64,000 nt of DNA, from positions 62,001-126,000 of IMG/VR virus record IMGVR_UViG_3300029914_000002; one strand, written 5' to 3'. Position numbers and translations under genes: made by a program. The notes beneath the pieces were generated by a model, which saw only the letters and a program-made list of their open reading frames with translations, was not told where the DNA came from and did no database searches. Of this stretch, positions 3,181-49,050 are shown in pieces; the first letter of the stretch is position 1; every line of letters starts with the position of its first letter. The stretch is from a virus.

Positions 3181-3211
3181 AAAAAAGCATCAATTAAATT
3201 GATTCTTTTTT
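3181..3211. terminator. Bidirectional hairpin terminator
   Basis: An A-run, the stem ATCAA/TTGAT and a T-run form a symmetric hairpin between the convergent genes ending at 3177 (+) and 3210 (-). Confidence 0.7.
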
Positions 3212-3716
3212 ATAAGTTAAAGTTTGAAGATGCTAAATGAAGAGGTAAATTTTCAGTTATAACATCATATAAAATTTTGAATTCATCAATTATATCACCC
3301 ATTGTTTTAGATTTTTTAATAATATTTTCTATTATAGGTGAATATATTTCAGTTAATTCAGTGTATACGTTATCTGGCATTTTCCTAATCTCAATTTTTG
3401 ATGGACCTCCTATAAATCCATTAATTGGTGATGTATGATATTTAATTCTATTAACTGAATATTTTGGATTCATTGATTGCATAGCTGATTCCCTCTCTTT
3501 TTCTGTTATTATAATTTTTCTTAATTCAGGATCATTTAAGCATTCAGATTTTTCTATTATTTGTTCAATAATACCATAAATTGGAGAGCATGACCGATAA
3601 TTAGTACCATAAGTCATATTTCCGTTACTGTTATTTATAGTAATATTAAAATCTTTATTCTTATATAAAGTAATTTCTCTCTCTTTCTGTTTTTCAAACG
3701 TTTTTAAATATTTCAT
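3210..3716 (-). CDS. Double-tagged small protein (MKYLKTFE...SSNFNL)
   Basis: A 168-residue protein of unknown function. It begins MKYLKTFEKQ and ends LASSNFNL, so it carries both conserved ends of the family described in the findings. The core has no recognised domain. It is the last gene of the minus-strand block, just before the shared terminator, so its C-terminal motif is not there to serve a downstream start codon. Confidence 0.7.
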   Translation of the reverse strand: MKYLKTFEKQKEREITLYKNKDFNITINNSNGNMTYGTNYRSCSPIYGIIEQIIEKSECLNDPELRKIIITEKERESAMQSMNPKYSVNRIKYHTSPINGFIGGPSKIEIRKMPDNVYTELTEIYSPIIENIIKKSKTMGDIIDEFKILYDVITENLPLHLASSNFNL

Positions 3717-3725
3717 ATAAATAGT

Positions 3726-3935
3726 TTATGATAATTTTTTATATTGATTATCTGTTATTATTAATATATAATCACCTTCAGTGGTTGATATATTATATAC
3801 ACTCTGATTATTATTTATAGCAGATAAGATATCAAGATATTCATCTATCATATCCAAATCTAAATTTTTTTCAGATAATTTAGATGTCACGATTTCTTTA
3901 GTTATTTGTGATAACTCTAATATTCTAACTTTCAT
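3726..3935 (-). CDS. Small hypothetical protein
   Basis: A 69-residue protein starting MKVRILELSQITKEIV. It lacks both family end motifs and lies 9 nt upstream of the tagged gene at 3210. No recognised domain. Confidence 0.55.
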   Translation of the reverse strand: MKVRILELSQITKEIVTSKLSEKNLDLDMIDEYLDILSAINNNQSVYNISTTEGDYILIITDNQYKKLS

Positions 3936-3998
3936 TAGTGTATATTAATATTAATTTTTAATTGTAATACTTTGTTAATGATTATTATATATTAATTT

Positions 3999-4337
3999 TT
4001 ATAAGTTGAATTTATCTGATGTCAGTTCAAAATCTTGAAGTTTAACCTTTCCCATAAATAATGCATGATCTCTATTATCTGGTTCTAATTTTAAAATCCA
4101 TTCAAAATATTCATCATAATCATCTGTTAAGCTATTATATTGTTTAACTTTTTCTTTATAAATATATACAAGAACATTTTCATTAGTATACCAAAGGCAC
4201 CAATCTTCAATTAAATCATCTGGTACTCCTATCTTTTTTAAAGACAATCTAAAATATGGTTGCAATAATGTTACTTGCCAATATTTATCCTCATATTTCC
4301 AATCACCATATTTTTCAAATGTATTTATATATTTCAT
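3999..4337 (-). CDS. Double-tagged small protein (MKYINTFE...SDKFNL)
   Basis: A 112-residue protein rich in Trp and Tyr (for example DWCLWYTNENV). It starts MKYINTFEKY and ends TSDKFNL. It is the last of a chain of minus-strand genes joined by 4-nt ATGA overlaps, which suggests coupled translation. The core is unlike the neighbouring members. Function unknown. Confidence 0.7.
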   Translation of the reverse strand: MKYINTFEKYGDWKYEDKYWQVTLLQPYFRLSLKKIGVPDDLIEDWCLWYTNENVLVYIYKEKVKQYNSLTDDYDEYFEWILKLEPDNRDHALFMGKVKLQDFELTSDKFNL

Positions 4338-4669
4338 AGATTAAAATTTTTTGCTTTTATTTTATATTCTAAATCTTCTTTATTTTCAGAATAATCAATA
4401 ATACTACTATATAAAAATTCTCTAAATCCAATATTATGATTAAGATTATAATTCTCATATCCAAATAAACTTGCAATCTCCATAGGTATATCTTCGTATT
4501 CAACACTTACTGTATTGAAATGATATTTTATTTCAATTTTTATAATTTTACCAATAGTATTATCAATAAAATCAGTCATTTCTTTATTCTGCATGGAAGA
4601 TTTCATTAATACATAATCTCCTACTTTTGGTTCATCTTTAATATTTTCAAATTTCTTTATATATTTCAT
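4334..4669 (-). CDS. Double-tagged protein, DYVL/SH3-like core
   Basis: A 111-residue protein starting MKYIKKFENI and ending KAKNFNL. The core reads VGDYVL, then NTIGKIIKI, a tyrosine-rich strand and YEDIP. This is the commonest core in the family (also 4666, 20389, 21124, 21902, 22234, 35978, 41535). The pattern of short beta strands suggests a small SH3-like barrel; that is inference. It overlaps both neighbours by 4 nt. Confidence 0.72.
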   Translation of the reverse strand: MKYIKKFENIKDEPKVGDYVLMKSSMQNKEMTDFIDNTIGKIIKIEIKYHFNTVSVEYEDIPMEIASLFGYENYNLNHNIGFREFLYSSIIDYSENKEDLEYKIKAKNFNL

Positions 4670-4977
4670 AAGTTAAATTTATTTGCTTGTAATTTCAATT
4701 TTAATTCTTCAATTGTTTTTCCATATTCCACTAATAATTCGATATCAAAAATTCTTGTACCATCATGAAAAAATAAATCTATATTATCTGGTATATTTTC
4801 ATATCTAACTCTACATTTATATTTTTTTAAATTTGGATCGAATTCTACAGCTGTTAATCTACCAAAATTTTTAGTTACAAAATTTATAACGCTATTAGTA
4901 CTATAACTATTCATTAAAACATAATCACCAACTTCTGGTAAATCAATATTATTTTCAAATTTCTTTATATATTTCAT
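4666..4977 (-). CDS. Double-tagged protein, DYVL/SH3-like core
   Basis: A 103-residue paralogue of the gene at 4334. It starts MKYIKKFENN and has VGDYVLMNS, NFGRLTAVE, YENIPDNI and KTIEELKLKLQANKFNL. The last segment is almost identical to the ends of the proteins at 35978 and 41535. Four-nt overlaps on both sides. Confidence 0.72.
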   Translation of the reverse strand: MKYIKKFENNIDLPEVGDYVLMNSYSTNSVINFVTKNFGRLTAVEFDPNLKKYKCRVRYENIPDNIDLFFHDGTRIFDIELLVEYGKTIEELKLKLQANKFNL

Positions 4978-5225
4978 AAATTAAATTTATTGGTATTTAA
5001 TAATAATTCAAAATTTTCAATTTCTAATGAAGTTAAAAATCTTAAAATTTGTTCTTTAATAATTCCAATTTTACATATTTCATTTTGAACTAAATAAAAT
5101 GACTCGTCTTTTTTAATTATTTTAGCATCAAATGTATAGTTATTTTGTCTATATTTTATATAATCACCAACTTTACAATCGTTAGGATTAAATAATTTCT
5201 TTTCAAATCTTTTTATATATTTCAT
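4974..5225 (-). CDS. Double-tagged small protein (MKYIKRFE...NTNKFNL)
   Basis: An 83-residue protein with CKVGDYIKYRQNNYTF near the N-terminus and LTSLEIENFELLLNTNKFNL at the end. The LTsxEIExxEL helix before the tag is shared with 12818 and 18388, defining a second core subfamily. Four-nt overlaps on both sides. Confidence 0.7.
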   Translation of the reverse strand: MKYIKRFEKKLFNPNDCKVGDYIKYRQNNYTFDAKIIKKDESFYLVQNEICKIGIIKEQILRFLTSLEIENFELLLNTNKFNL

Positions 5226-5719
5226 AAGTTAAATTTATCTATATTATTATATAATCCAGGAATACTATAAATATTTCTAAAATATTTCGGAGTCATAAAT
5301 TTTTCCTTCTTACAATCATAAACAAAAACTACTTCAATTTTTCTATAATCTTTTAAAAATACATGAATATCTCCAAATTCTGCTGATTCACCATCGTAAT
5401 TGACTCCTAATACAAAATCTGGTCCTTCACTTACATAATCAAATTCATATTGATTGATAGCATTTACTCCATCTTTTATTGATTTTGGAGTACCATCAAA
5501 CCAATCGCAAACATCTATAGCAGCAGAGATATAATCATTATCTGTTACATCATCAGCCATTCCAAATGCATATTCTAAAATTTGATGATTTAATGGTATA
5601 GGATCATCAGAAGGTAACGGCTTACCATTACAAAAACTAAGTGCAATTTCTGGTGTAACTTCTAAATAAAATTCAGCATCATTTTGATCTAAACTTTCAA
5701 ACCTTTTTATATATTTCAT
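5222..5719 (-). CDS. Double-tagged protein (MKYIKRFE...NIDKFNL)
   Basis: A 165-residue acidic protein starting MKYIKRFESL and ending NNIDKFNL. The core (for example ITPEIALSF-like and DVCDWFDG segments) does not resemble the other members and I do not recognise it. It overlaps its neighbours by 4 nt. Confidence 0.7.
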   Translation of the reverse strand: MKYIKRFESLDQNDAEFYLEVTPEIALSFCNGKPLPSDDPIPLNHQILEYAFGMADDVTDNDYISAAIDVCDWFDGTPKSIKDGVNAINQYEFDYVSEGPDFVLGVNYDGESAEFGDIHVFLKDYRKIEVVFVYDCKKEKFMTPKYFRNIYSIPGLYNNIDKFNL

Positions 5720-5961
5720 AAGTTAAATTTAATTGTTTGATTAACTTGTTCAGGATCTTTTAATATTCTATATAATTCTAACCATCTTGTTATTTCTTCA
5801 TATTCATCATCATCATATCTCCATTCATTTGGTAAAGTTGGATCATGAACTATTTCGTCATCATCATAAAGAATTTCAAATTTTTCTCCTATTAATACAT
5901 TGAGTTCTTCCTTCGTAACTCTTATTATTTTTTTGCTACTCAAAGCATATAACGCTATCAT
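5716..5961 (-). CDS. C-terminal half-tagged paralogue (ends TIKFNL, lacks MKYIK)
   Basis: An 81-residue protein whose core (IIRVTKEELNVLIGEKFEIL, then NEWRYDDDE) is paralogous to the adjacent gene at 5936. It keeps the C-terminal KFNL but starts MIALYALSSKK instead of the usual motif. It overlaps the upstream gene by 26 nt. Together the two look like a tandem duplication in which one inner pair of tags was lost. Confidence 0.65.
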   Translation of the reverse strand: MIALYALSSKKIIRVTKEELNVLIGEKFEILYDDDEIVHDPTLPNEWRYDDDEYEEITRWLELYRILKDPEQVNQTIKFNL

Positions 5962-6205
5962 GCCTTCTAAATGATTTTAAAAACTTTTTTATATCATCTT
6001 CTTCATCTGAATCATATCTCCATTCATCTAGATGATTTGAATCATATCTAATTCTTTCATTATCATAAAGAACTGTAAAATCATTGTCTATTAATGCATC
6101 AAGTTCTTCTTGAGTTACTTTTATAATTTTAGAATCATTATCTAAATTTATTAAATTAATCATATTTTCTTTTTTCCTTGATTCAAATGTTTTTATGTAT
6201 TTCAT
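5936..6205 (-). CDS. N-terminal half-tagged paralogue (MKYIKTFE, lacks KFNL)
   Basis: An 89-residue protein that starts MKYIKTFESRK and has the core IIKVTQEELDALIDNDF and DEWRYDSDEE. It ends RHDSVICFE, with no KFNL. It is the N-terminal partner of the duplicated pair with 5716. Stop codon is TAG, so TAG is used as a stop in this genome. Confidence 0.65.
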   Translation of the reverse strand: MKYIKTFESRKKENMINLINLDNDSKIIKVTQEELDALIDNDFTVLYDNERIRYDSNHLDEWRYDSDEEDDIKKFLKSFRRHDSVICFE

Positions 6206-6516
6206 AAGTTAAATTTATTTGCACTATCATTAAGTTCAATTCGGTTATATAATTCTTCTGTTGTTATTTCTTTACCAAATTCATCAACTAATTTATATGA
6301 AAAATTTAATAATCCTTCTTCAAGAATAATATGCTCAATTGTATATTGTATTAACGATTTTTTATCATTTTTATAATCCTTTTCATATTGTATATAATAA
6401 CTATCTTTAATCAAATCATCAAAAGGAATATGACGTTTATCAACTGGTATAGTAACAATAGCGAATATTCCTGTAATGCTATCAGTTGAATTTTCATTAA
6501 ATTTTTTTATTTTCAT
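6202..6516 (-). CDS. Double-tagged small protein (MKIKKFNE...SANKFNL)
   Basis: A 104-residue protein with a variant N-terminus MKIKKFNENS and the standard end SANKFNL. It is the first gene of the minus-strand cassette and is divergent from the ankyrin gene at 6576. No recognised core. Confidence 0.7.
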   Translation of the reverse strand: MKIKKFNENSTDSITGIFAIVTIPVDKRHIPFDDLIKDSYYIQYEKDYKNDKKSLIQYTIEHIILEEGLLNFSYKLVDEFGKEITTEELYNRIELNDSANKFNL

Positions 6517-6557
6517 ATTAATAATTGATTTTATCTATATATAAAATTTATAAGTTA

Positions 6558-6570
6558 TTTTTTATATATA
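6558..6570 (+). promoter_or_regulatory. TTTTTTATATATA element upstream of ankyrin gene
   Basis: A T-run followed by ATATATA ends 5 nt before the ATG at 6576. The same element lies just upstream of many genes here and differs from the TATCTTTG class. It could be a phage-specific promoter. Confidence 0.4.
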
Positions 6571-6575
6571 AAGAT

Positions 6576-7091
6576 ATGAAACATTTGAAATTATATGAGG
6601 AATTAAAATTCAATGAGAAACAATACCATACTTATGAACTATTGAATCTTGTTCAGATGCATGATTTAGGTTCAAAAGGAGAAGCTGAAATGATTGATAT
6701 GATAAATTCTGGACAAATAGATTTAAATTTACAAGATCAACTAAGTTATAGAACAGCTTTAATATATTCTATGATTAATAGATATGAAAAAGTATTTGAT
6801 GAATTGATAAAATCAGATGTGAATTTAGATTTACAAGATGATAATGGAAATACAGCATTAATAATCTCAGCAATAGGTAGCACTGGAAGTAGTAGTGATT
6901 ATTATAAATCTATAATGGAAAAATTAATTGATGCAGGAGCAGATTGGAATAAAACACAAAATTATGGACGTGAAAAAGATTTTCTTGAACATATACAAGA
7001 TAACGAATTTAAAAGACATATATTAAAGAAATATCATAAACAATATGAAATATATTTAATGATAAAAACTTCTGAAAAATTTAATATATGA
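6576..7091 (+). CDS. Double-tagged ankyrin-repeat protein
   Basis: The start is taken at MKHLKLYEEL (6576) rather than the in-frame ATG at 6525, because this restores the family N-terminus and follows the promoter-like element. The protein is 171 residues. Ankyrin-like units are visible (NLDLQDDNGNTALIISA; KLIDAGADWNK). It ends TSEKFNI. Ankyrin repeats bind proteins, so this would be an interaction module. It overlaps the next gene by 4 nt. Confidence 0.8.
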   Translation: MKHLKLYEELKFNEKQYHTYELLNLVQMHDLGSKGEAEMIDMINSGQIDLNLQDQLSYRTALIYSMINRYEKVFDELIKSDVNLDLQDDNGNTALIISAIGSTGSSSDYYKSIMEKLIDAGADWNKTQNYGREKDFLEHIQDNEFKRHILKKYHKQYEIYLMIKTSEKFNI

Positions 7092-7561
7092 AATATATAA
7101 AAACATTTGAACAAAATTTAGATTTAAATAATGAATTAATAGACTCTTGTATAAATAATAATATAAAAAAAGTTGAAAGTTTAATAAAACAAGGAGCTGA
7201 TGTTAATTATATCAATAAAGATGGTTTCAACTCATTAATATATTCTGTTAATAATATTGATATTTTAAAAATATTAATTAAAAACGGAGCGGATGTAAAT
7301 ATCCAAGATACTACAAATCAAGGTTATACACCATTATTACTAGCATCCTCTAATAGATTTATGTTTCCTTATATCGAAAATTATGATACTATAAAATTAT
7401 TAATAGATTCAGGAGCTGATTGGAATGTTAAAGGTAGAATTGTTAAAATTACTTTTTTTGATTATTTACCTACTGAAATTAAAGAAAAAATTAAAAAAGA
7501 TTATCCAGATAAATATGAAGATTATTTATTACAACAAGAAGCTGAAAAATTCAACATATAA
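7088..7561 (+). CDS. Double-tagged ankyrin-repeat protein
   Basis: A 157-residue protein starting MKYIKTFEQN with ankyrin units (KQGADVNYINKDGFNSLIYS; KNGADVNIQD...GYTPLLLAS; DSGADWNVKG). It ends EAEKFNI and the stop is followed at once by a terminator, so the C-terminal motif is kept although no gene follows. Paralogue of 6576 and, in fold, of 36319. Confidence 0.82.
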   Translation: MKYIKTFEQNLDLNNELIDSCINNNIKKVESLIKQGADVNYINKDGFNSLIYSVNNIDILKILIKNGADVNIQDTTNQGYTPLLLASSNRFMFPYIENYDTIKLLIDSGADWNVKGRIVKITFFDYLPTEIKEKIKKDYPDKYEDYLLQQEAEKFNI

Positions 7562-7592
7562 AAAAAGACTCAATTAAATTGAGTCTTTTTTA
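7561..7592. terminator. Hairpin terminator
   Basis: GACTCAATT/AATTGAGTC with flanking A- and T-runs, directly after the ankyrin gene. Likely bidirectional. Confidence 0.8.
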
Positions 7593-7614
7593 AATTTTAG
7601 AAATATATTAATTT

Positions 7615-7815
7615 TTAATTTATTACTTCTACATTAGAACAATTCAGTCCTTTTTTACCTTCAACTAGATCAAAACTGACTTCGTCATTTTCATATATTT
7701 TGTCTATCAAATTTGTGATGTGAACAAAATATTCCTTACCTGTTTCTTTTTCGGCTACGAACCCATATCCTTTTTCCGAATTGAAAAATTTTACGGTGCC
7801 ATTTAATTTACTCAT
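7615..7815 (-). CDS. cspA-like: Cold-shock domain protein
   Basis: A 66-residue single cold-shock domain. It has the RNA-binding motifs KGYGFVA (RNP1) and EYFVHIT (RNP2) and the NGTVKFFN start typical of CspA. It binds single-stranded RNA or DNA in the cytoplasm and could act as an RNA chaperone during infection. The phenylalanine cluster is intact. A short inverted repeat TGTGG/CCACA lies 20-35 nt upstream of the start, in the leader. Cold-shock proteins occur in some phages. Confidence 0.93.
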   Translation of the reverse strand: MSKLNGTVKFFNSEKGYGFVAEKETGKEYFVHITNLIDKIYENDEVSFDLVEGKKGLNCSNVEVIN

Positions 7816-7882
7816 TATTTATTATTATTTTTATTATTGTGGATAAATTCCACATTCTATATAGTAATAAAAAATAATAAGT

Positions 7883-8758
7883 TTATAAATATTTGAAATA
7901 ATTATTTTTATAAGATTTTTTGTTACCTGATAATACTTCCCATATTCTATTAGTTTTAGTATTAAAATACGACGCACAATTTTTTACACTATTAAATTCT
8001 TTAATTATTTCTCCACTTTCTGATATTTGAGCAACTTTTTTAGATCTTAATAATTTATATTCTTCAGTCATAGGTCTTTTTTTTACACCAATCATAGCTT
8101 TACTCATTTTCAATTTAACTTCATCTGTTCTTTTTTGACCAGTATTCTTTTTTACCCTTTTTTCAATAGTTTCTTTACTTTGCTGTTTACCTTTTTTTGA
8201 AATGCTTATTTTTAATTTAGCTTCATCACTCATTTTTTTACCTTTATTTAATATACTTAATTTTAATTTAGTTTCATCACTTGTTATTCTACCTTTTTGT
8301 GATTTACTCATTTTTAATTTAGTTTCATCTGAAATATTTATTCCTTTTAATTTTTCTGATATTATTTTTTTTGTTTCTTCACTTTGTTTTATACCAAAGT
8401 GACTTTTGTTTCCAATACTTTTTTGCCTTAATATATCTTTTGTTTTGTCACTATGTTTCATTCCTAAATTATGTCCAGCATTAGGTAAAATATTATATCC
8501 ATTTTTACAGCAATCAAAAAAATCAATATAATATTGTTCTCTAATTAAAATTTCATTAATACTACATTCTTCTAAAATTGTATATGTAAAATTTTCAATA
8601 CCATATTTATCATAAGCTCTTTGTAATTTAATAGAATGATGTTTATTCTTTTTTAATTGATTCTTATGTTGAGTAAATCTTCCTTTAACATTTATTGATG
8701 ATCCAACATAACATTTATTATTTATTAAATTTGTTATTTTATATACACCAATAATCAT
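7883..8758 (-). CDS. GIY-YIG homing endonuclease with NUMOD repeats
   Basis: A 291-residue protein. The N-terminal GIY-YIG nuclease domain reads GVYKITN then CYVGSS, followed by an R at GRF and the KYGIENFTYTILE segment. The middle contains several NUMOD3-type DNA-binding repeats (SDETKLKMSKSQKG and close variants). A NUMOD1-like C-terminus reads AQISESGEIIKEFNSV. This is the architecture of free-standing phage homing endonucleases such as the Seg family. It overlaps the upstream ribbon-helix-helix gene by 4 nt. Selfish mobility is known for the family; its target here is unknown. Confidence 0.92.
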   Translation of the reverse strand: MIIGVYKITNLINNKCYVGSSINVKGRFTQHKNQLKKNKHHSIKLQRAYDKYGIENFTYTILEECSINEILIREQYYIDFFDCCKNGYNILPNAGHNLGMKHSDKTKDILRQKSIGNKSHFGIKQSEETKKIISEKLKGINISDETKLKMSKSQKGRITSDETKLKLSILNKGKKMSDEAKLKISISKKGKQQSKETIEKRVKKNTGQKRTDEVKLKMSKAMIGVKKRPMTEEYKLLRSKKVAQISESGEIIKEFNSVKNCASYFNTKTNRIWEVLSGNKKSYKNNYFKYL

Positions 8759-8898
8759 TTTTGATTTATTATTTTTTCAATAAAATCTTTCATAGCATTT
8801 TCTATGAATAATGATTTATTAATTGATTTCTCTTTTGAAATCTTATCAAATTCTTTTGATATTTCTTTTTCTATTGTAAATGTTTTTTGAACTTTCAT
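8755..8898 (-). CDS. Ribbon-helix-helix small DNA-binding protein
   Basis: The start is taken at MKVQKTFTIEKEI (8898); an in-frame ATG at 8937 would add 13 hydrophobic residues upstream. The 47-residue protein has a strand-helix-helix layout (KTFTIEKEISKEFDKIS, then SLFIENAMKDFIEK) like Arc/CopG regulators. It overlaps the homing endonuclease gene by 4 nt and may repress it. Function inferred from fold. Confidence 0.65.
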   Translation of the reverse strand: MKVQKTFTIEKEISKEFDKISKEKSINKSLFIENAMKDFIEKIINQK

Positions 8899-8945
8899 AT
8901 ATTGTTTTATCTGTATATATAAATATAATAAAGTCAAAAACAGGC

Positions 8946-8982
8946 AAAAAAAAAGACTACAGATATTTCTGTAGTCTTTTTA
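8946..8982. terminator. Hairpin terminator
   Basis: GACTACAGA/TCTGTAGTC flanked by A- and T-runs. It ends the minus-strand gene at 9000. Confidence 0.8.
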
Positions 8983-8999
8983 AATAAATAATAAGTTTA

Positions 9000-9356
9000 T
9001 TATATTTTAGATATTTTATTTAATTCGTTTAATTTGAATTTTCTTTCTAATTGTTTAGGAATTTCATATTTGAATTCGTAACCTTGACTTCTCAAATAAT
9101 CTATTGCTATTAAAGGAGATATACTTTCAGTTATCATTCCGCCCCAATTGCCATTGTTTCTATGTAAGTTAATAATACCATTATAATATATTGTGATATA
9201 AGAATCATTCACATTATTATATGCAGTTGATGTTGTATTAATTTGAACTGCTAATCCATAATTCCATTCACCTGCAAGATAATCAATAAATGGCTCACCG
9301 TACATTTCGCATATTATTTCAACTTCTTCTTTGGTTATATTTTTTAAATCTTTCAT
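9000..9356 (-). CDS. Hypothetical protein
   Basis: A 118-residue protein starting MKDLKNITKEEVEII. It has a beta-rich centre (YITIYYNGIINLHRNNGNW) and a helix-rich end. It forms an ATGA-coupled pair with the membrane protein upstream. Not recognised. Confidence 0.55.
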   Translation of the reverse strand: MKDLKNITKEEVEIICEMYGEPFIDYLAGEWNYGLAVQINTTSTAYNNVNDSYITIYYNGIINLHRNNGNWGGMITESISPLIAIDYLRSQGYEFKYEIPKQLERKFKLNELNKISKI

Positions 9357-9544
9357 TTTTTAGGTTTTTTATTTTTTATTATTAATTCAACTATATAAAA
9401 AAAACTTACAATTATTATAATATCAAATGTTAAGCAGAATCTCCACCATTCAAAAGAATATGCTTTTATATTTATAAAAATAGCAATTTTACTTATAATC
9501 ATGCCTATAATAATGCTAAAAATATACATTGTTTTATTTTTCAT
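9353..9544 (-). CDS. Small two-helix membrane protein
   Basis: A 63-residue protein with two hydrophobic segments (IFSIIIGMIISKIAIFI and IIIIVSFFYIVELII) and a lysine-rich end. It probably sits in the inner membrane. It overlaps both neighbours (4 nt and 11 nt). Function unknown. Confidence 0.6.
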   Translation of the reverse strand: MKNKTMYIFSIIIGMIISKIAIFINIKAYSFEWWRFCLTFDIIIIVSFFYIVELIIKNKKPKK

Positions 9545-9803
9545 AACTATTTTTTAATTTTAAATAAATTTGATAATATTCTTCTTCTGAAATTTTATCA
9601 ATTTCATTATTTATCAATTTAGAATCTTTAGGTTCAGATATTACGTTATCACGTTCAATTTGTTTTTCCTCATATTTCTTCAATTTTACTTGAATTGCAT
9701 CATGTTCATTTTTTTGTTTAAGACGTCTTTTTTCATGATAATCTATTGAATTAATCAAATGATTATATAATTTAGTTTCTTTATATCTTAAAAATCTATT
9801 CAT
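9534..9803 (-). CDS. Small helical protein, start set by promoter
   Basis: The frame is open further upstream, but the TATCTTTG box at 9829-9836 lies inside that extension. The start is therefore placed at MNRFLRYKE (9803), giving 89 residues. The protein is charged and mostly helical (YHEKRRLKQKNEHD). Function unknown. Confidence 0.6.
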   Translation of the reverse strand: MNRFLRYKETKLYNHLINSIDYHEKRRLKQKNEHDAIQVKLKKYEEKQIERDNVISEPKDSKLINNEIDKISEEEYYQIYLKLKNSYEK

Positions 9804-9828
9804 ATTATTAGTATTTAAAGTTAATGTG

Positions 9829-9836
9829 CAAAGATA
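9829..9836 (-). promoter_or_regulatory. Bacteroidota-type -7 box TATCTTTG
   Basis: The reverse complement reads TATCTTTG, 25 nt upstream of the ATG at 9803. It decides the start of that gene. Confidence 0.6.
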
Positions 9837-9904
9837 CAAATAAAAATTGAATATAATATAAAAATTAATAATATTTAATATAATAGGACAGCAATAAAAA
9901 TATA

Positions 9905-10036
9905 TATAATAATGTCGCACTTAAAGTGACGAGGTTCATTTTTTGGGTTATGTTAGTTTAGAGTCATTATGACTTTGGAATTGTTGAAAAGCAATGAATG
10001 AATTAGCAAACTAAAAATAAAAAAAATAAAAAAATT
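9905..10036 (+). promoter_or_regulatory. Structured leader before the zinc-ribbon/VWA operon
   Basis: The gap holds several inverted repeats: GTCGCACTT/AAGTGAC near 9914, AGTCAT/ATGACT near 9961, and TAGTTT/AAACTA bracketing about 9954-10014. The gene starts at 10037. It looks like a folded 5' untranslated region, but I recognise no known riboswitch. Confidence 0.35.
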
Positions 10037-10924
10037 ATGACAAACAACAAACTGTTGGACAGGAACCCTTCTGTTCAAATTTCTAGCAAAAGAAACGAAT
10101 TGAAAATTTATCAAGGTAACATTATTTACTTAAATAATGGTGATAACTTTGAACTTAATTTTTTCAATCCAACAAATGAAAAAATTGGAGTTAGTATCGA
10201 ATTTAACGGAATCAAAAAAGGAGATTCTTATTTAATTTTAAATCCTGGTCAAAATGTATTTTTAGATCGGTTTTTAGATGAACAACGTAAAATGTTATTT
10301 GAAACTTATAACATTGATGGTAATAATAAAGAAGCGTTAGAAGCGATTGAAAAAAATGGATTAATTACCTTTAATTTCTATAAAGAATATTGGAGAAGTA
10401 ATAATACTAATGAAGTAAATGTAAATTATGAATTTCCACCTAAGCCTTATAATTATAATAATCTTAATAACACTGGAACATATTATGGAAATTATTTTGG
10501 AAATTCTTCAATAACATCATTAACTGGAAATTCTATAAGTTTTTCTGGATTTTTTGATACTAATAATTCTAATTCTAAATATAATTCAGATACTAGTTGT
10601 GTTTATACTCAAAGTTGCAATTCATTAAATAATAATATATTTAATTCATCAAGTAATATTGGAGGATCAACATTTACATCTAGTTTAAATATTAATTCTA
10701 TTGAAACTGGTAGAGTTGAAAAAGGAGAATTATCAGATCAAAAATTAAAAAATGTAAACGTCGAATTTTCAAATACATCATTCTATTCAATATCTTATAA
10801 ACTTATGCCTTATTCTTCTAAATCTCAGAGTATCAATGAGATACGTGAATATTGTAATGAGTGCGGATATCGTTTAAGAAAAAGTTCTTGGAAATTCTGT
10901 CCGAAATGCGGAACTAAAATTTAA
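10037..10924 (+). CDS. Conserved phage protein with C-terminal zinc ribbon
   Basis: A 295-residue protein. The N-terminal beta-rich domain contains NPGQNVFLDRFLDEQRKMLF and FETYNID, which I recall as a pattern conserved in T4-like phage hypothetical proteins. A low-complexity Asn/Ser linker follows (about 145-225). The C-terminus is a zinc ribbon with CNECGY and CPKCGT near 273-293. Virion association is possible but unproven. The gene is followed by the VWA protein, 8 nt downstream. Confidence 0.7.
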   Translation: MTNNKLLDRNPSVQISSKRNELKIYQGNIIYLNNGDNFELNFFNPTNEKIGVSIEFNGIKKGDSYLILNPGQNVFLDRFLDEQRKMLFETYNIDGNNKEALEAIEKNGLITFNFYKEYWRSNNTNEVNVNYEFPPKPYNYNNLNNTGTYYGNYFGNSSITSLTGNSISFSGFFDTNNSNSKYNSDTSCVYTQSCNSLNNNIFNSSSNIGGSTFTSSLNINSIETGRVEKGELSDQKLKNVNVEFSNTSFYSISYKLMPYSSKSQSINEIREYCNECGYRLRKSSWKFCPKCGTKI

Positions 10925-10932
10925 TTTATAAT

Positions 10933-11541
10933 ATGAATAAGGTAGATATAGTTTGCATATTGGATATGTCTGGCTCAATGGGGTCGATAATAGTAAAAGC
11001 GAGAGAAGGATTTAACAAATTCTTAACGGAACAAAAGGAAAATGGAAATAAAATAAATTTTTCATTGATGTTTTTTGATACAAGTTTTTATATGCCATAT
11101 AAAAACGTTGACATTAAAGAAGTAAATGAACTTAATGAAAACACTTATTATGCTAATGGTGGTACTAGTTTATATGATGCGTTAGGATTTGCTTCAGATA
11201 ATTATATAAAGCAACTAGGATCAACTAAAAAAAGTAAAAGAAGTGATAAAACATTATTTGTTATATTAACAGACGGAGAAGAAAATTCTTCTACTATATA
11301 TAGTCGTGATATGATTAAATTAATGGTGACAGATATGAGAGAAAATTTAAATATTGAATTTATTTATTTAGGTGCAAATCAAGATTCATGTTTTGTCGCA
11401 GAATCAATGGGAATGAGTAGAAGCAATTCATTTAATTATGATGCTACGAATGACGGAATAATAGTAGCATATTCAAATATTTCTGCTGCAACGACTTATT
11501 ATACCGAAAATAATGTAAAGGATAATCTTTTCCAAAAATAA
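10933..11541 (+). CDS. von Willebrand factor A (VWA) domain protein
   Basis: A 202-residue single VWA domain. The MIDAS metal site is complete: DMSGSMGS near residue 10-17, the Thr of GGTSLYDA, and the Asp of LTDGEENSS. VWA domains bind protein ligands through a divalent metal. It is transcribed with the zinc-ribbon protein, so the two may act together. No signal peptide, so probably cytoplasmic or virion-borne. Confidence 0.9.
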   Translation: MNKVDIVCILDMSGSMGSIIVKAREGFNKFLTEQKENGNKINFSLMFFDTSFYMPYKNVDIKEVNELNENTYYANGGTSLYDALGFASDNYIKQLGSTKKSKRSDKTLFVILTDGEENSSTIYSRDMIKLMVTDMRENLNIEFIYLGANQDSCFVAESMGMSRSNSFNYDATNDGIIVAYSNISAATTYYTENNVKDNLFQK

Positions 11542-11577: not shown

Positions 11578-11609
11578 AAAAAAGAGAATCAATTGATTCT
11601 CTTTTTTTA
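11578..11609. terminator. Bidirectional hairpin terminator
   Basis: GAGAATCAATTGATTCTC flanked by A- and T-runs, between the VWA gene (+) and the tagged gene ending at 11607 (-). Confidence 0.8.
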
Positions 11610-12017
11610 TAAATTAAATTTTAATGCATTTAGATAAATTTCGTAATTTTCTTTTGATATATCATTTATAATATTATCTATTTCTGTGATTTTTATTCTA
11701 CCTAATTCTGAATATTTATCCATTATATATTTTATAAATTTTGATATTTTTTCTATTTCTGAATCTATCCATCCTGGATTATCTAGTATAGTATTAATAT
11801 CAAACAAAAAATAATCATTATTTGTGGATAATCTTAAATTTAAAAAATAATTTCTTTGTATATCATTTTTATTATAACTAAACGCATAATCACAATTATA
11901 TTCATATGAATAAATAATTTCATTTTGATTTTTATTTATAAAATTATGTATATAATAAGCGAGTTCTTGAATTTTCTCTTTACTATTTGATTTTTCAAAC
12001 TTTTTAATATATTTCAA
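11607..12017 (-). CDS. Double-tagged protein (MKYIKKFE...NALKFNL)
   Basis: A 136-residue protein starting MKYIKKFEKS and ending LNALKFNL. The core (YYIHNFINKNQNEIIYSYEYN...IDNIINDIS) resembles the proteins at 21468 and the broken gene at 20715 in layout. It is the last gene before a terminator. Function unknown. Confidence 0.7.
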   Translation of the reverse strand: MKYIKKFEKSNSKEKIQELAYYIHNFINKNQNEIIYSYEYNCDYAFSYNKNDIQRNYFLNLRLSTNNDYFLFDINTILDNPGWIDSEIEKISKFIKYIMDKYSELGRIKITEIDNIINDISKENYEIYLNALKFNL

Positions 12018-12288: not shown

Positions 12289-12813
12289 TTATAAATTAAA
12301 TTTATTTACTGTTTTATCAAATTCTATTTTCTTTTTATATTCATCTACATTAAAAGTTTTATATTTATCATTTGAATGATGATATATATTACCATCATCT
12401 CCTATTTCAGCATCTACATTTCCTAAAACATCACATAATTTAGTAATGATTGTTAAGTTTTCACTATCATTTATTCTTTCAAAAAATCCAGATCCATGTC
12501 CATTTCTTGTCAACCATAAATCATTACCAATTTGGTCATCTGTCATATCTTCAAAAACATCTCCTGCTGAATTAATAAACCATTCAACTTCTTTTACAAT
12601 CTCATCTTTAGAATTTTCATCGATATCATATATATTTTTTCCTTCCCATGGATCATAATCTGTTTCATGACCTTCTTCAGTCCAAATTAATGCTGTTATA
12701 TAGCTATCAACAGCAGTATCTATATCGTAATCATTTTCAAATTCATTAATATCATGATATTCTTCGAAATCTTCATCATCGTCAAATTCTTCAAATATTT
12801 TTAAATGTTTCAT
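12289..12813 (-). CDS. Double-tagged acidic protein (MKHLKIFEEF...TVNKFNL)
   Basis: A 174-residue, strongly acidic protein. Its first residues MKHLKIFEEFDDDED match those of the neighbour at 12818, although the rest differs. It ends KTVNKFNL. The shared ends with unlike middles argue for cassette shuffling or for selection on the ends. Function unknown. Confidence 0.7.
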   Translation of the reverse strand: MKHLKIFEEFDDDEDFEEYHDINEFENDYDIDTAVDSYITALIWTEEGHETDYDPWEGKNIYDIDENSKDEIVKEVEWFINSAGDVFEDMTDDQIGNDLWLTRNGHGSGFFERINDSENLTIITKLCDVLGNVDAEIGDDGNIYHHSNDKYKTFNVDEYKKKIEFDKTVNKFNL

Positions 12814-12817: not shown

Positions 12818-13180
12818 TTACATATTAAATTTGTTTGCTGTTAATAATAGTTCAAGTTCTTCAATTTCACTTGAAGTTAAATCTCTATCAATCTCACTTT
12901 CACCTATCCAAAATTCTTTTAATTCTCTTGTCTTTTTATGAATAGATATTACTTTATATCTTGGCTCATACATATCATCATCATTTTCATCAAAATCTGT
13001 ATCGTTAACTTCAATAATTTTAACAAATGGACCTACAACATTCAATTCACTTTCAGAATCATCTAATTTTACATAATCTTCTAATTTTACATAATCTCCT
13101 ACATGTTGAGATGTATAATGTCCTACTGGTGATAATTCGTCATCATCGTCAAATTCTTCAAATATTTTTAAGTGTTTCAT
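12818..13180 (-). CDS. Double-tagged protein (MKHLKIFEEF...ANKFNM)
   Basis: A 120-residue protein with HVGDYVKLEDYVKLDD, ELKEFWIGESEIDRDLT and SSEIEELELLLTANKFNM. It belongs with 4974, 12019 and 18388 in a second core subfamily. Four nt upstream of the gene at 12289. Confidence 0.7.
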   Translation of the reverse strand: MKHLKIFEEFDDDDELSPVGHYTSQHVGDYVKLEDYVKLDDSESELNVVGPFVKIIEVNDTDFDENDDDMYEPRYKVISIHKKTRELKEFWIGESEIDRDLTSSEIEELELLLTANKFNM

Positions 13181-13185: not shown

Positions 13186-14568
13186 TTACATATTAAATTT
13201 ATCTACATTTACAATATAACTATATTCATTTATAATTTCAGGATTCAATATATTTGATTTCATTATTAATTTATAATTTTCATTATCATTTTCAATTAAG
13301 TATTTTTGAAATTCATAAGTTTTAAACCATTCTAATATTTTTCCATTATATAATTTAGCAATTTCTAATAAATTTATATGCTTTCTATAATATTTAAACC
13401 AAATATCATAGTCATAATCATAAAATGCATATTTTTTTTCCATTTTTTTAAACATTTCTAAATTATCTGTTTTAATCCAAATCGGAAATATATCATCAGG
13501 ACTGTCTACATATTTACTAACTACATCATCAATAGAGTTTTTTAAATTATCAAAATTAAGATGACTATAACTATCTTCATATTCAATAGTTTCATATCTT
13601 AAGTCATCAGAATCATATATATTAGATAAAAATTCTTTAATAGTTTTAACATTTAATTTATATTTTATCATATACTTAATCATAGTTTTATACTCAAAAA
13701 CCAATTCTATCTGATATTTTTTTGTGTCACTATCATGATTAGTATTATCATTAATATTAAAAGGCATTTTTTCTAATGCTTTCTTTGCTGCTATTTCTAC
13801 TGCACGTTCATGAGCCATTGAAATTTCACTTTCAAATGTTTCTAAATCATCAGTTAAATCTAAATATTTAAATAAGTCTGCTATTTTACCTTGTTCTGTA
13901 GGATCTATATTATCGTCAAAATAAAATAACTTGGATAATTCTATAATTTTATCATTAGTTTCTTTTTTTGTATAATTACCCAAATAATCTAATTCTTCTT
14001 TATCAACATAGAATTCATAATTATTATTATCTCGAGTTAATTGTAAAATAGAACTTATAGAACCATTTTCGATATCAAGTAAATTTTCAAGAACCTCAAT
14101 ATTAATAATTAAAGTGAATCCTTTCTCATCATATGAAAATTCTTTTTCATATGGATAATGATAATTTTTTTCTGAATTTATTATTGCTTCATCTTCATCG
14201 AATCCAATATATTTGTTGATATCTTCTGGTTTAAATTTCTTTGATGATAATACTTTTATTAAATTTGGTATATTATCTATATTATCTTCAACATCAGAAC
14301 TTTCTGTTATTGGATTATTTTTTAAATATGCAACTTGTTTAGTTTGTTTAAATGTTAAGTCACTAAGTTTTTTAACTTTAATATTTATTTCATTATTTAA
14401 TTCTGCTTGTGTTTTTCTATCTTTTTCGTTTTGAACTCTCTTTCTAAGTTTTTTGAGACTATCTTGCATATATGCAATCTTATCTGCAATGTTATCATCA
14501 ATTTTGAAAGGTTTTTCGTTATTTATTTTGATTGGAGTAAAATATTCATAATTTTTAATATATCTCAT
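13186..14568 (-). CDS. Large double-tagged protein (MRYIKNYE...NVDKFNM)
   Basis: At 460 residues, the largest tagged protein in the window. It starts MRYIKNYEYF, has an N-terminal coiled-coil-like stretch (about 25-75, LKKLRKRVQNEKDRKTQAE), a mixed middle and the end NVDKFNM. No recognised enzyme motif. It sits between tagged neighbours with short gaps. Confidence 0.7.
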   Translation of the reverse strand: MRYIKNYEYFTPIKINNEKPFKIDDNIADKIAYMQDSLKKLRKRVQNEKDRKTQAELNNEINIKVKKLSDLTFKQTKQVAYLKNNPITESSDVEDNIDNIPNLIKVLSSKKFKPEDINKYIGFDEDEAIINSEKNYHYPYEKEFSYDEKGFTLIINIEVLENLLDIENGSISSILQLTRDNNNYEFYVDKEELDYLGNYTKKETNDKIIELSKLFYFDDNIDPTEQGKIADLFKYLDLTDDLETFESEISMAHERAVEIAAKKALEKMPFNINDNTNHDSDTKKYQIELVFEYKTMIKYMIKYKLNVKTIKEFLSNIYDSDDLRYETIEYEDSYSHLNFDNLKNSIDDVVSKYVDSPDDIFPIWIKTDNLEMFKKMEKKYAFYDYDYDIWFKYYRKHINLLEIAKLYNGKILEWFKTYEFQKYLIENDNENYKLIMKSNILNPEIINEYSYIVNVDKFNM

Positions 14569-14586: not shown

Positions 14587-15036
14587 TTATAGATTAAATT
14601 TTTTTGCACTTATTTTAATTAAAAGGTTATTAATATATTCTTTTAATTCTATCATATCGTCTGAGGTTTTAATTGTAAAATCTCTAAATATAACATCAGG
14701 ATTATATTTTTGAAATTTATTTTTATACCAATTCAATTGTAATTTACTCAATATATCATCTCTATTATAATCATCCGATAACGGAATTATATGTTCCATA
14801 CTATTATAGTTATATGGTAATAAATTAATATCATCAACATGATTTAATATTATAAAAAAATATATATCATTAGTAAATAATTCAAATTTTATTTTTTTTG
14901 AATTTAAAAAATTAATAATATATGGTATTTTTTCAAAAAATTTATCACTAATAATTACTCCTGGTAATTTACCATATTCTCCTCCAACTTTAATATCGGA
15001 CGGTTCTATTACTTTATAACTTTCTAAATATTTCAT
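14587..15036 (-). CDS. Double-tagged protein (MKYLESYK...SAKKFNL)
   Basis: A 149-residue protein starting MKYLESYKVI and ending KISAKKFNL. The core (IIPLSDDYN..., WYKNKFQKYNPD) is not recognised. It is the first gene of this minus-strand block. A TATATA element lies 26-39 nt upstream. Confidence 0.68.
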   Translation of the reverse strand: MKYLESYKVIEPSDIKVGGEYGKLPGVIISDKFFEKIPYIINFLNSKKIKFELFTNDIYFFIILNHVDDINLLPYNYNSMEHIIPLSDDYNRDDILSKLQLNWYKNKFQKYNPDVIFRDFTIKTSDDMIELKEYINNLLIKISAKKFNL

Positions 15037-36322: not shown

Positions 36323-36849
36323 AATACGTAAAAACCTTTGAAAATATAATAGAAGGAAAACGTCGAAACGATGTACTTGATATTATTATTGAAGATAATT
36401 CATTAAAAATGAAGAAGCTATTAGATAAAAACAAGATAAATATAAATGATAGAATTTATAAACTTAATGGTATAATTTTTGGAGTATCTTATGATATTAA
36501 ACGTACATTAGATATAATTCCAGATATCGATAATGCAAATTGGACATTATTAATGATTGCATCTTATATTGGAAAAATTGATATAATTGAAACATTAATA
36601 GAATTTGGAGATGAAGAATATATAAATGAAAATTATAAAGGATTAACAGCGTTAATGTTAGCTTCTATGAATAATAAAATATTAGCAGTTGAAACATTAA
36701 TTAAATTAGGTTCTAATATATATTTAACTAATGATAAAGGTCAAGATTTCTTGGATATTTCAACAAAAGAATTTAGAAAAGAAATTATTGATACTATTGA
36801 TGATGAAAATGTTATACGATTTATTACAGCAAAAAAATTTAACATATAA
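36319..36849 (+). CDS. Double-tagged ankyrin-repeat protein
   Basis: A 176-residue protein starting MKYVKTFENI. Two or three ankyrin-like units are visible (ANWTLLMIASYIGKIDIIETLI; YKGLTALMLASMNNKILAVETL). It ends ITAKKFNI. Third ankyrin core within the tagged family. Confidence 0.75.
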   Translation: MKYVKTFENIIEGKRRNDVLDIIIEDNSLKMKKLLDKNKININDRIYKLNGIIFGVSYDIKRTLDIIPDIDNANWTLLMIASYIGKIDIIETLIEFGDEEYINENYKGLTALMLASMNNKILAVETLIKLGSNIYLTNDKGQDFLDISTKEFRKEIIDTIDDENVIRFITAKKFNI

Positions 36850-36863: not shown

Positions 36864-37316
36864 ATGAAACACGTTAAAGCATTTGAGTCATTAACAGAAA
36901 AAGAACAAGAAAAAGTTGATTTATTAGCAGATTTGATGAGTAGAAATCCAAAAAGTGAAGACAATGATTTTTATATTTTTCTTGCAAAAGATACATTTAA
37001 AGAAACTAAAGGAGGATTATATAAAAAAGAATTAGAAATCGAAAATATGATTAGAATTACTCCTGATTATCATGGATTATTTTCAATTCATGGATTAGAA
37101 ATGAGAGAAAAATTTCAAATTGATAGTAAAATATATCATATATGGTTACCAAAAGAAATGAGAACGGATATTGAAGGTAAATCTGACGGTGATATGAAGC
37201 CTTGGCTATTAAAAATGATAAATAAAAATAAAAGTTACGGAGCTGATGAATATGGTAAAAAAGTTTATAAAGATGCAATTGATATGAGAAAAAATGCTTC
37301 AAAATTTAACATATAA
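36864..37316 (+). CDS. Double-tagged protein (MKHVKAFE...ASKFNI)
   Basis: A 150-residue protein starting MKHVKAFESL and ending KNASKFNI. The core (IHGLEMREKFQIDSKIYHIW) is not recognised. It is followed by 37319. Confidence 0.68.
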   Translation: MKHVKAFESLTEKEQEKVDLLADLMSRNPKSEDNDFYIFLAKDTFKETKGGLYKKELEIENMIRITPDYHGLFSIHGLEMREKFQIDSKIYHIWLPKEMRTDIEGKSDGDMKPWLLKMINKNKSYGADEYGKKVYKDAIDMRKNASKFNI

Positions 37317-37318: not shown

Positions 37319-37696
37319 ATGGAAAAATATACTAAAATATTTGAAGAAGCAAGCAAAGAAAAATGGAATAATTATTGCACAATTATAAGTTATATTGATG
37401 AAGATGACAATAATCCAGATGTTTATCTTTGTGATAATGAATATCAAGGATTTATTTATCTTAAAAATTTAATTTATGATGAATATGCTGAAAAATATAA
37501 TTCAGAATATTGTAGCAAGATATTAATAGAATTTAGTACTGCTGATAATCTTAATGATTTATATGAAATTTTTTGTAGTAAAAATCATAGAATGAGAGTA
37601 TATTTAATTTATTGTGAATTGAATGAAAAAGTTGAACTTAATGACTGGATAAAAGATTGGGAATTAAAAAATACAGCAAGCAAATTTAACGTATAA
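37319..37696 (+). CDS. Double-tagged protein (MEKYTKIFEE...ASKFNV)
   Basis: A 125-residue acidic protein with a variant N-terminus MEKYTKIFEE and the end NTASKFNV. It is the last complete gene of the plus-strand cassette. Confidence 0.67.
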   Translation: MEKYTKIFEEASKEKWNNYCTIISYIDEDDNNPDVYLCDNEYQGFIYLKNLIYDEYAEKYNSEYCSKILIEFSTADNLNDLYEIFCSKNHRMRVYLIYCELNEKVELNDWIKDWELKNTASKFNV

Positions 37697-41025: not shown

Positions 41026-41538
41026 TTATATATTAAATTTATCAGTATTAAATATATATGAAAATGCATTTTTTACTTTAGATGTAAAATAATAAGAATA
41101 TTCGTTGTAATATTTTTTAATTATTTCTAAATTCGGAATATTTGATAATAATTCAATTATTTTATTGTCTAATTTATTAGTAAATTCAGGTTTATAATAT
41201 TTATAAATATTATCTTCTATTTTAAATATAGATTTACGATTAATTAAACTAGAAGAATTAATGTTTTTTTCTTTAATAAATTTGTCTATATTTTTATAAA
41301 AACTATTAGTATCAGTATATGAATTATTTATTCCAATAAGATTATTGAAAATTGTTCTATGTTGAAACCTATCTGATTCAAGTTCTGTTAATGTTAAATC
41401 ATCAATTTTATCTAAAATATTTAATCTTTTTATATAATCAGTGATAAACACTGAAAGTAAAGATTCTTCTTCTTTTGTTAAATATTGATTATTATAATCA
41501 GATGATTTTCTTTCTTCAAATGTTTTTACGTATTTCAT
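41026..41538 (-). CDS. Double-tagged protein (MKYVKTFE...NTDKFNI)
   Basis: A 170-residue helical protein starting MKYVKTFEER and ending FNTDKFNI. Core not recognised. Overlaps the upstream gene by 4 nt. Confidence 0.68.
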   Translation of the reverse strand: MKYVKTFEERKSSDYNNQYLTKEEESLLSVFITDYIKRLNILDKIDDLTLTELESDRFQHRTIFNNLIGINNSYTDTNSFYKNIDKFIKEKNINSSSLINRKSIFKIEDNIYKYYKPEFTNKLDNKIIELLSNIPNLEIIKKYYNEYSYYFTSKVKNAFSYIFNTDKFNI

Positions 41539-41864
41539 AAATTAAATTTATTTGCTTGTAATTTTAATTCTAATTGCTCTTTTGTTTTACCATGCTCAAC
41601 TATTCTATTAATATCAAAAGTTCGAATATCTAATCCATTATTAATATTAAAATAAGATTTAATAGTTTCAGGCACATTTTCATATAACACAACAACATCA
41701 TTACGGTCAGTAATAATATCAATTATTTTACCAATAGTATTATTTATAAAATTCTCTGTATCTATTTGTTTTTGAGTATAAGGAAGTATATTAATTTTAA
41801 TTAATACATAATCACCAACTTCTAAATTATCTTCTATATTTTCATAATATTTTAAATATTTCAT
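41535..41864 (-). CDS. Double-tagged protein, DYVL/SH3-like core
   Basis: The start is taken at MKYLKYYENI (41864), which restores the family N-terminus; seven upstream in-frame residues are not needed. 109 residues with EVGDYVLIKIN, NNTIGKIIDII, VLYENVPETI and KTKEQLELKLQANKFNL. Confidence 0.72.
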   Translation of the reverse strand: MKYLKYYENIEDNLEVGDYVLIKINILPYTQKQIDTENFINNTIGKIIDIITDRNDVVVLYENVPETIKSYFNINNGLDIRTFDINRIVEHGKTKEQLELKLQANKFNL

Positions 41865-47722: not shown

Positions 47723-47726
47723 AATA

Positions 47727-47734
47727 CAAAGATA
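47727..47734 (-). promoter_or_regulatory. -7 box TATCTTTG of small RNA copy 2
   Basis: Reverse complement of CAAAGATA, 12 nt upstream of the 5' hairpin, the same spacing as in copy 1. Confidence 0.55.
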
Positions 47735-47758
47735 ATATAAATATTTTTATTGTGCAAG

Positions 47759-47772
47759 TTTTTTATATATAA
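47759..47772 (+). promoter_or_regulatory. TTTTTTATATATAA element
   Basis: 15 nt upstream of the ATG at 47788. Same class as 6558. Confidence 0.4.
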
Positions 47773-47787
47773 ATAAAAAATATTTTT

Positions 47788-48228
47788 ATGAAACATTTAA
47801 AAACATTTAAAATATACGAAACAGGAGAATGGAGTAGAGATGTAAATTGGAACTATGTTAAAGATAATCCTGATGATGATAGTGAAGAAGCAAGTTTAAT
47901 TAGGTATTTAGAAGAAAGATTAGATTATATAATTTCAAATTTAGATAATGATACTATATTAAAAATAAAAGATATTAGAGGACACGATTTATATCAAGGT
48001 GCTTATGCTATAGTTAGTATATTTGGGAAAACATATAAAATTTGGAGTATGGAAAGTTCTGGATTAGAAGATGAATTATATATTGAAGGATTTCCAATTA
48101 ACAATTTAGATGAAAATTCTAATCCTGGATATGTTGGTGACACAGAAAATATAGCAGAATTATTAAATAGTATTAATGAAGTTGGAGGAATTGAAATATA
48201 TAAAACAACAAATAAATTTAACATATAA
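47788..48228 (+). CDS. Double-tagged protein (MKHLKTFK...TTNKFNI)
   Basis: A 146-residue acidic protein starting MKHLKTFKIYE and ending KTTNKFNI. Core (YQGAYAIVSIFGKTYKIWSM) not recognised. One base separates its stop from the next start. Confidence 0.68.
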   Translation: MKHLKTFKIYETGEWSRDVNWNYVKDNPDDDSEEASLIRYLEERLDYIISNLDNDTILKIKDIRGHDLYQGAYAIVSIFGKTYKIWSMESSGLEDELYIEGFPINNLDENSNPGYVGDTENIAELLNSINEVGGIEIYKTTNKFNI

Positions 48229-48229
48229 T

Positions 48230-48721
48230 ATGATAACAAAATTTAATATATTTACTCTAAATGAGACTATGATATCTCATGATACACGTGAGTTACGCAG
48301 TGGTAATTATTTAACATTAGAAAGATTAGAAAATGGGAATCTTAAAATATCATTAACTGAAGAAGGAAAAGAAAAAGTTGAAGAAGATATTGATATAAAG
48401 GAAGCAGATTTTTTTGATTATTTTGAAAATATATCTTCAAACTCTGAATTATTATATATTTATAATATTTCTGATATTGGTATTATGATGGAAGCTCCTT
48501 GTATTACAATAGGATATTATATTGATGATTCTGGTGAATTAACTGACGAAGGTAATGAAGATTACTCAGAAATTTTTTATTATGCTGATTATGCTATTAA
48601 AAATTTCACAGAAGAATTAAAAAATAACGGATTTGTAATATTCCAAACATCTGGTGTATTAACTCCAGAAGAATTTGAAGAATTTAAATTAAATAAATCA
48701 GCAAACAAATTTAACATATGA
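48230..48721 (+). CDS. Double-tagged protein (MITKFNIFTL...SANKFNI)
   Basis: The start is taken at MITKFNIFTL (48230), since the in-frame ATG at 48176 lies inside the previous gene and this choice gives the MITxF variant of the family start. 163 residues, acidic, ending KSANKFNI. Overlaps the next gene by 4 nt. Confidence 0.68.
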   Translation: MITKFNIFTLNETMISHDTRELRSGNYLTLERLENGNLKISLTEEGKEKVEEDIDIKEADFFDYFENISSNSELLYIYNISDIGIMMEAPCITIGYYIDDSGELTDEGNEDYSEIFYYADYAIKNFTEELKNNGFVIFQTSGVLTPEEFEEFKLNKSANKFNI

Positions 48722-49050
48722 TAACAAATTTTAAAATATTTGAAGAAAATGACGATATATATTTTTCAGTAGGTGATGAAGTAATATGCATTCACGGTGA
48801 AAAAAGGAAAAATTATAATAGTACTGAACCAAAAGAAGGTAAAAAATATTTAGTATTAAAAATATATGAGGAAAATTTTGATGATGAAGGAAATCCATTT
48901 ATAATTGATCATCAATATGTAACAGAAAAATATAAAGGGGATTGGTGGATTGACGTTAAAGACATAAAACATAATATAATTTTAAATCAATGCTTAGCTA
49001 ATGATTTTAAATCAGAAATTATATTAGCATCAAACAAATTTAATTTATAA
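48718..49050 (+). CDS. Double-tagged protein (MITNFKIFEE...SNKFNL)
   Basis: A 110-residue protein with FSVGDEVICIHG and KYLVLKIYEE, a small-barrel pattern. It ends LASNKFNL and is directly followed by a terminator. Confidence 0.7.
   Translation: MITNFKIFEENDDIYFSVGDEVICIHGEKRKNYNSTEPKEGKKYLVLKIYEENFDDEGNPFIIDHQYVTEKYKGDWWIDVKDIKHNIILNQCLANDFKSEIILASNKFNL

Follow-up and report, generated by a model that had tools for sequence, protein, structure and literature searches.

Phage genes with two conserved ends and unrelated cores, candidate head cargo of a huge-phage lineage

Two-ended genes and their arrangement

The window analysed here, bases 62001-126000 of the 216,921-base IMG/VR virus record IMGVR_UViG_3300029914_000002 (GC 21.7%), contains on both strands a set of genes whose proteins share a short N-terminal leader and a short C-terminal tag (C-tag) around cores that differ. 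These two-ended genes were found by six-frame reading of the window and of the whole record. The consensus of the start in the record is M-K-[Y/H]-[I/L]-K-x-[F/Y]-E and that of the end is [A/S/T]-x-K-[F/Y]-N-[L/I], the Asn of the end being fixed by the regular expression of the search, so that its invariance partly reflects how the set was chosen. Both ends are present on 33 intact genes of the window, as well as on one frameshift-split gene and one pseudogene, which bears out the original prediction of at least 34 such genes; the whole record has 65 intact two-ended genes, encoding proteins of 83 to 460 amino acids (aa) with a median of 127.

The two ends are strongly associated, with 57 genes of the record having both, six the start only, nine the end only (broad regular expression) and 313 neither (Fisher odds ratio 330, p = 3e-51). 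Most of the end-only genes have leader variants, and at least two of the start-only genes are broken (5936-6205, and 19786-19974 on the minus strand, with a MKNLKTFEEY leader, poly-Lys and an incomplete C-tag ending in TKF). From internal frequencies, KFN would be expected 0.16 times at positions -4 to -2; it was observed 58 times. The pattern AARTTYAAYHTATRA occurs 58 times in the record and once in the reversed control, and the corresponding numbers in three related contigs are 93/0, 71/0 and 67/0.

From the left of the window, the minus strand has two-ended genes at 3210-3716 (168 aa, MKYLKTFE...SNFNL), 3999-4337 (112 aa, MKYINTFE...DKFNL, in a cluster of 23), 4334-4669 (SH3-like core with DYV, MKYIKKFE...KNFNL), 4666-4977 (SH3-like core, structure predicted), 4974-5225 (83 aa), 5222-5719 (165 aa) and 6202-6516 (FNE-type leader, MKIKKFNE...NKFNL, with the late-like element described below upstream). 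Two ankyrin genes are on the plus strand at 6576-7091 and 7088-7561, the second with a predicted structure and no gene following. The minus strand continues with 11607-12017 (TTG start, 136 aa), 12289-12813 (acidic core), 12818-13180 (SH3-like cluster, KFNM end), 13186-14568 (460 aa, MRYIKNYE...DKFNM) and 14587-15036 (MKYLESYKVIE leader, with Glu at 11), and the plus strand with 17849-18391 and 18388-18675, the latter of the SH3-like cluster. Further minus-strand genes are 19123-19782 (219 aa, no gene following), 19994-20392 (KYNI end), 21468-21905 (MKHIKEYTIFE leader) and four members of the SH3-like cluster (20389-20718, 21124-21471, 21902-22237 and 22234-22566). The plus strand then has 34850-35119 (MITNFKLFE leader, late-like element upstream), 35978-36322 (SH3-like cluster), 36319-36849 (ankyrin core), 36864-37316 and 37319-37696 (MEKYTKIFEE leader, KFNV end), followed by 41026-41538 and 41535-41864 on the minus strand, the latter of the SH3-like cluster and with the late-like element upstream. 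The last three genes are on the plus strand at 47788-48228 (MKHLKTFKIYE leader, late-like element upstream), 48230-48721 (MITKFNIFTLNE leader) and 48718-49050 (MITNFKIFEE leader, no gene following).

Two minus-strand loci are decaying. The single gene at 5716-6205 is tandem-duplicated and frameshift-split into a leader half (5936-6205) and a KFNL half (5716-5961), and in the pseudogene at 20715-21130 both ends, the leader MKHLKIYED and the KFNL end, have outlasted the broken frame.

Cores and predicted structures

After 12 N-terminal and 10 C-terminal residues were cut off, the 65 proteins of the record fall into 32 core clusters at E < 1e-4 and, together with relatives, 426 proteins fall into 112; these are sequence clusters, the singletons being compared by sequence and not by deeper fold relations. 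At this level the cores are unrelated, as had been claimed. They include a barrel family of 21 members, nine ankyrin proteins, three leucine-rich repeat (LRR) proteins and small groups, 27 clusters having one member from the record. Pfam models matched ankyrin, LRR and one ExoX-like domain in the cores, a PHROGs search of the cores gave no named function, and a fold search with the barrel returned SH3/Tudor-like folds, with weak matches only.

AlphaFold models were obtained for a barrel protein (4666-4977), with a mean predicted local distance difference test score (pLDDT) of 86 that drops to mostly below 50 over residues 1-9 and to about 52 over the final three, and for an ankyrin protein (7088-7561), with a pLDDT of 88.6, the first ten residues helical at about 60 and the last seven at about 73. 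In these two predicted folds, the tagged ends extend from the folded core as tails of low confidence. A pairing of the N- and C-ends as one structural element was discarded, both being left as tails in the SH3-like and the ankyrin models.

Conservation of the ends at the protein and nucleotide levels

Open reading frames (ORFs) chosen by the leader only, and having no ATG within 30 nucleotides (nt) downstream, end in [KNQR][FY]N in 30 of 39 cases. In these 30 ends, Phe is encoded by TTT in 18 and by TTC in 10, with Tyr in two, while Asn is AAT in 22 and AAC in eight. The end motif thus persists where no gene follows, and its codons vary synonymously, both of which had been noticed from the window itself. 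In 239 homologous pairs of genes ending in TAA or TAG, the mean core identity is 38% and the residues at -4, -3 and -2 agree in 92, 90 and 100%, values biased upward by the choice of the set by its C-tag with Asn fixed. The codon figures of the same pairs are unbiased: given a shared residue, codons agree in 65% for Phe and 57% for Asn, and in 69% in the cores. Synonymous divergence is as rapid in the C-tag codons as in the core codons, which supports selection on the protein, and the leader codons are synonymously variable too. The original prediction of protein-level selection at both ends is therefore supported by the enrichment, the uncoupled genes, the coupling counts and the codon divergence, the conservation being neither purely at the nucleotide level nor lost in the absence of a neighbor.

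It is highly improbable that the C-end is mainly a translation-coupling sequence, with AAATTTAAYNTATGA serving to start translation of the gene that follows and the protein motif arising as a side effect. A nucleotide-level layer is indeed added in ATGA-coupled genes, where the last codon is nearly always NTA and the tag Asn is AAC in 25 of 37 genes, compared with 5 of 19 uncoupled genes and 8.6% genome-wide, so the same stretch is a protein tag and, when coupled, the leader of the next gene. However, 21 other ATGA overlaps in the genome have other end residues and no KFN, the coupling element precedes the start in only 2 of 33 tagged genes lacking a coupled tagged gene upstream, and the tag is retained, with synonymous and F/Y changes, in the leader-chosen ORFs described above. 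An explanation of the uncoupled tagged genes as recent relics of coupled ones is disfavored by the synonymous divergence. Coupling as the sole cause is thus largely refuted and was rejected, as originally argued, although the AAC bias and the layer in coupled genes had been overlooked; the hydrophobic last residue, also taken earlier as a sign of protein selection, is weak evidence because the NTA-TGA ending of coupled genes leaves only codons for hydrophobic residues. Conservation of the ends as DNA, namely as recombination sites by which cores are shuffled as cassettes, is very improbable. The tandem arrays, the many unrelated cores and the swapping of leaders on homologous cores would fit such sites, but end codons diverge synonymously at the core rate, leader codons vary as well, and the ends have no excess nucleotide conservation, for which this cause was rejected. 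Core shuffling at the ends may instead be a consequence of their conservation.

The leader compared with known capsid-targeting and cargo signals

The source is a huge phage of the Bacteroidota type. A 1061-aa protein of the contig matches the 735-kb huge phage LR756501 at 40%, with a relation also to Sphingomonas phage PAU; LR756501 comes from the study that defined the Mahaphages, the largest of which are predicted to infect Bacteroidetes (PMC7162821).

The majority leader MKYIKxFE is like the T4 capsid-targeting sequence (CTS, MKTYQEFIxE) in hydrophobic spacing only, whereas a small class of KFN-tagged genes has near-T4 leaders (MKKYNQFINES, MKSFDQYINEN, MKTYLQYIKEA and MKNFIEFINES), so the likeness to T4 claimed for the start is close for this class and limited to spacing for the rest. 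Other variants are MITNFKxFE, MK(I/V)xxFNE and MKxYxxFINE; leader types are exchanged on homologous cores, and thus look equivalent. In PAU, the leader MKT[LI]xxLYE[AS] is present on proteins annotated as the scaffold (gp152) and as internal capsid proteins (gp142, gp154, gp270), as well as on many neighbors of the portal and maturation protease, and it is intermediate between the T4 CTS and the majority leader. As in the two-ended set, the form M-K-x-[IL]-x-x-[LF]-[YF]-E is carried in this related phage by many diverse proteins (gp142, gp149, gp150, gp152-154 and gp270), but PAU has the gp21-like site LYE-[AS] and no C-tag. Leader-type N-termini are also present in the huge phages LR756500/501/504. 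The leader is best read as a putative T4-type CTS.

Encapsulin cargo-loading peptides are short C-terminal peptides that mark unrelated proteins for an HK97-fold shell. Their sequence is different and there is no encapsulin here, the likeness to the C-tag being a functional analogy only.

The internal proteins of T4 have only their leader in common; after packaging, they are delivered by injection and act as inhibitors of diverse restriction enzymes (PMC3012670; PMC12373910). Like the genes described here, IPI, IPII and IPIII are variable accessory genes with a short N-terminal leader on otherwise unrelated proteins, and both lineages have a T4-type head with a prohead protease. Unlike T4, with three such genes and about ten reported across its relatives, this genome fragment has at least 65, its majority leader is without a clear gp21 site, and the conserved C-terminal KFN[LI] is added. 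In phage P1, the N-terminal packaging peptide of DarB is sufficient for head entry and its cargo protects against restriction (PMC9024508), an N-terminal packaging determinant comparable to the leader; however, the Dar proteins share no consensus and no C-tag has been reported for them (PMC9024508).

Promoters, head genes and a second C-terminal signature

A T-rich ATATATA late-like element (TTTTTATATATA) is present within 60 nt of 44 of 79 tagged operon starts, 73 of 340 others and 1 of 22 starts of the RKxKLxKL class described below, whereas the Bacteroidota-type TAnnTTTG is found at 1 of 79, 70 of 340 and 6 of 22, respectively. The late-like element is also present before several large, probably structural genes (record positions 157527, 176155, 185119 and 197813), which suggests that the tagged operons would be late.

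The KFN[LI] C-tag is confined to one lineage and the N-terminal leader is distributed more widely, a difference overlooked in the original prediction; a tblastn search of named phages with one tagged protein as the query gave no match. Two related tagged contigs (G016 and G018) have a portal 64-66% identical to that of LR756501 (phrog_213) and a head closure protein, and in G018 a head maturation protease domain (phrog_207) was also recognized, in a protein of 781 aa. In both, a two-ended gene follows the portal (MKVNRFNES...DKYNL and MKIAKFNET...EKYNL), and in G018 this gene directly precedes the protease, the G016 contig ending before its protease. A search with the Gp23 Pfam model was negative for a capsid gene, and LR756501 homologs were used instead. 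Homologous portal and structural proteins are shared with the Mahaphage/PAU-Lak group, and the lineage, as judged from the portal and prohead protease genes, is predicted to have T4-type heads. The head maturation protease was also seen at the N-terminus of proteins of 780-810 aa, possibly protease-scaffold fusions (L166:16462-18807 and L150:23914-26337).

A second C-terminal signature, RKxKLxKL, is present on 66 of 385 genes against 0.38 expected, with zero overlap with the KFN genes, and it too had been overlooked before. Many of these genes have a GDKV/L-x-C start and stand in tandem arrays (record 627-10826, 61694-64486, 128390-132291 and elsewhere; in the window, for example, 2274-2486), and they could partly be one homologous family.

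Proposed function

Taken together, it is somewhat likely that the two-ended genes encode head cargo similar to the T4 internal proteins, with the leader as a CTS and the C-tag as a second recognition element. By this analogy, the products would probably be a large arsenal of packaged and injected proteins. Through the leader and its variants, each protein would be recruited to the prohead core during head growth. The proteins would be produced late, enter the head along with the DNA and be injected at the next infection; inside the new host, their varied cores (SH3-like barrels, ankyrin, LRR and orphan folds) would have an early role, probably against host defenses. The C-tag, [AST]xK[FY]N[IL], would be a lineage-specific second element, most likely one that acts as cargo-loading tags do, by docking to a partner in the core, the shell or the portal. 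Its presence on the accessory cargo, and not on leader-only proteins near head genes, suggests a second determinant. The C-tag has no known counterpart, and a literature search, with most subscription journals outside its coverage, turned up no description of a two-ended tag. A bolder version is doubtful, in which KFN[LI] genuinely marks cargo at the C-terminus and, jointly with the CTS leader, loads tens of unrelated effectors into one head, RKxKLxKL is a second, mutually exclusive label under another promoter type, and a large part of the proteome is sorted by terminal peptides.

Several observations weigh against head packaging. The late assignment comes from the sharing of a promoter motif; no head genes were found on the contig of the window; and the PADLOC matches bearing on the predicted anti-defense role of the cores are for the most part either weak or caused by ankyrin sequences. 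PAU lacks the C-tag, which in relatives of 462-735 kb that have leader-type proteins occurs no more often than background, so packaging in the clade needs no C-tag. Furthermore, the gp21-type [LI]xE shows no excess beyond chance in the majority leader (77 seen, 64 expected), for which gp21 cleavage after the leader was set aside as unsupported in this class.

These points leave room for other functions of the ends. It is rather unlikely that they form a two-part address elsewhere, such as a phage compartment, the replication complex, the membrane or a shared partner, without virion packaging. Such an address would agree with a C-tag that has no known capsid counterpart and is missing from relatives with the same head type, and with the RKxKLxKL signature, whose mutually exclusive occurrence on other genes of the same genome suggests that the phage may commonly use C-terminal labels for sorting; however, the match of the leader to the PAU head-module leader and T4 CTS forms, as well as the late-like promoters of the tagged operons, argue for the head. 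Proteolysis signals, either for trimming of the leader by the prohead protease or as a KFN[LI] C-degron for turnover, are improbable. Most leaders have Glu at position 8, and otherwise often at 9 or 11, and the small near-T4 class has the gp21-type site in the form [FY]IxE, but the majority leader lacks the excess of sites noted above and a small residue follows Glu 8 in only 50 of 226. KFN[LI] is not known to resemble any degron. Among the roles originally proposed (head packaging, localisation, proteolysis and partner docking), head packaging is best supported, by comparison with PAU, the T4-like leaders, the promoter class and the head-operon neighbors. Trimming of the leader is unsupported for the majority class, in which gp21-type sites are not enriched.

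If head packaging is correct, searching for the two ends would be enough to list the proteins that are packaged and injected by relatives of the largest phages known, whose genes are almost all of unknown function, and would provide a candidate two-ended tag for loading proteins into a phage head. The T4 internal-protein system, which has a handful of genes, would become a genome-scale strategy.

Other genes of the window

The T4-type gp32 single-strand DNA-binding protein recognized earlier was confirmed at 33332-34306 (PF08804, 4e-20; phrog_224). Additionally, the window has three DNA methyltransferase-like genes (665-2110, 25035-25802 and 27003-27824), a zinc-ribbon protein adjoining a von Willebrand factor A domain protein (10037-11541) and a GIY-YIG homing endonuclease-like gene (7883-8758; phrog_314, 3e-44).

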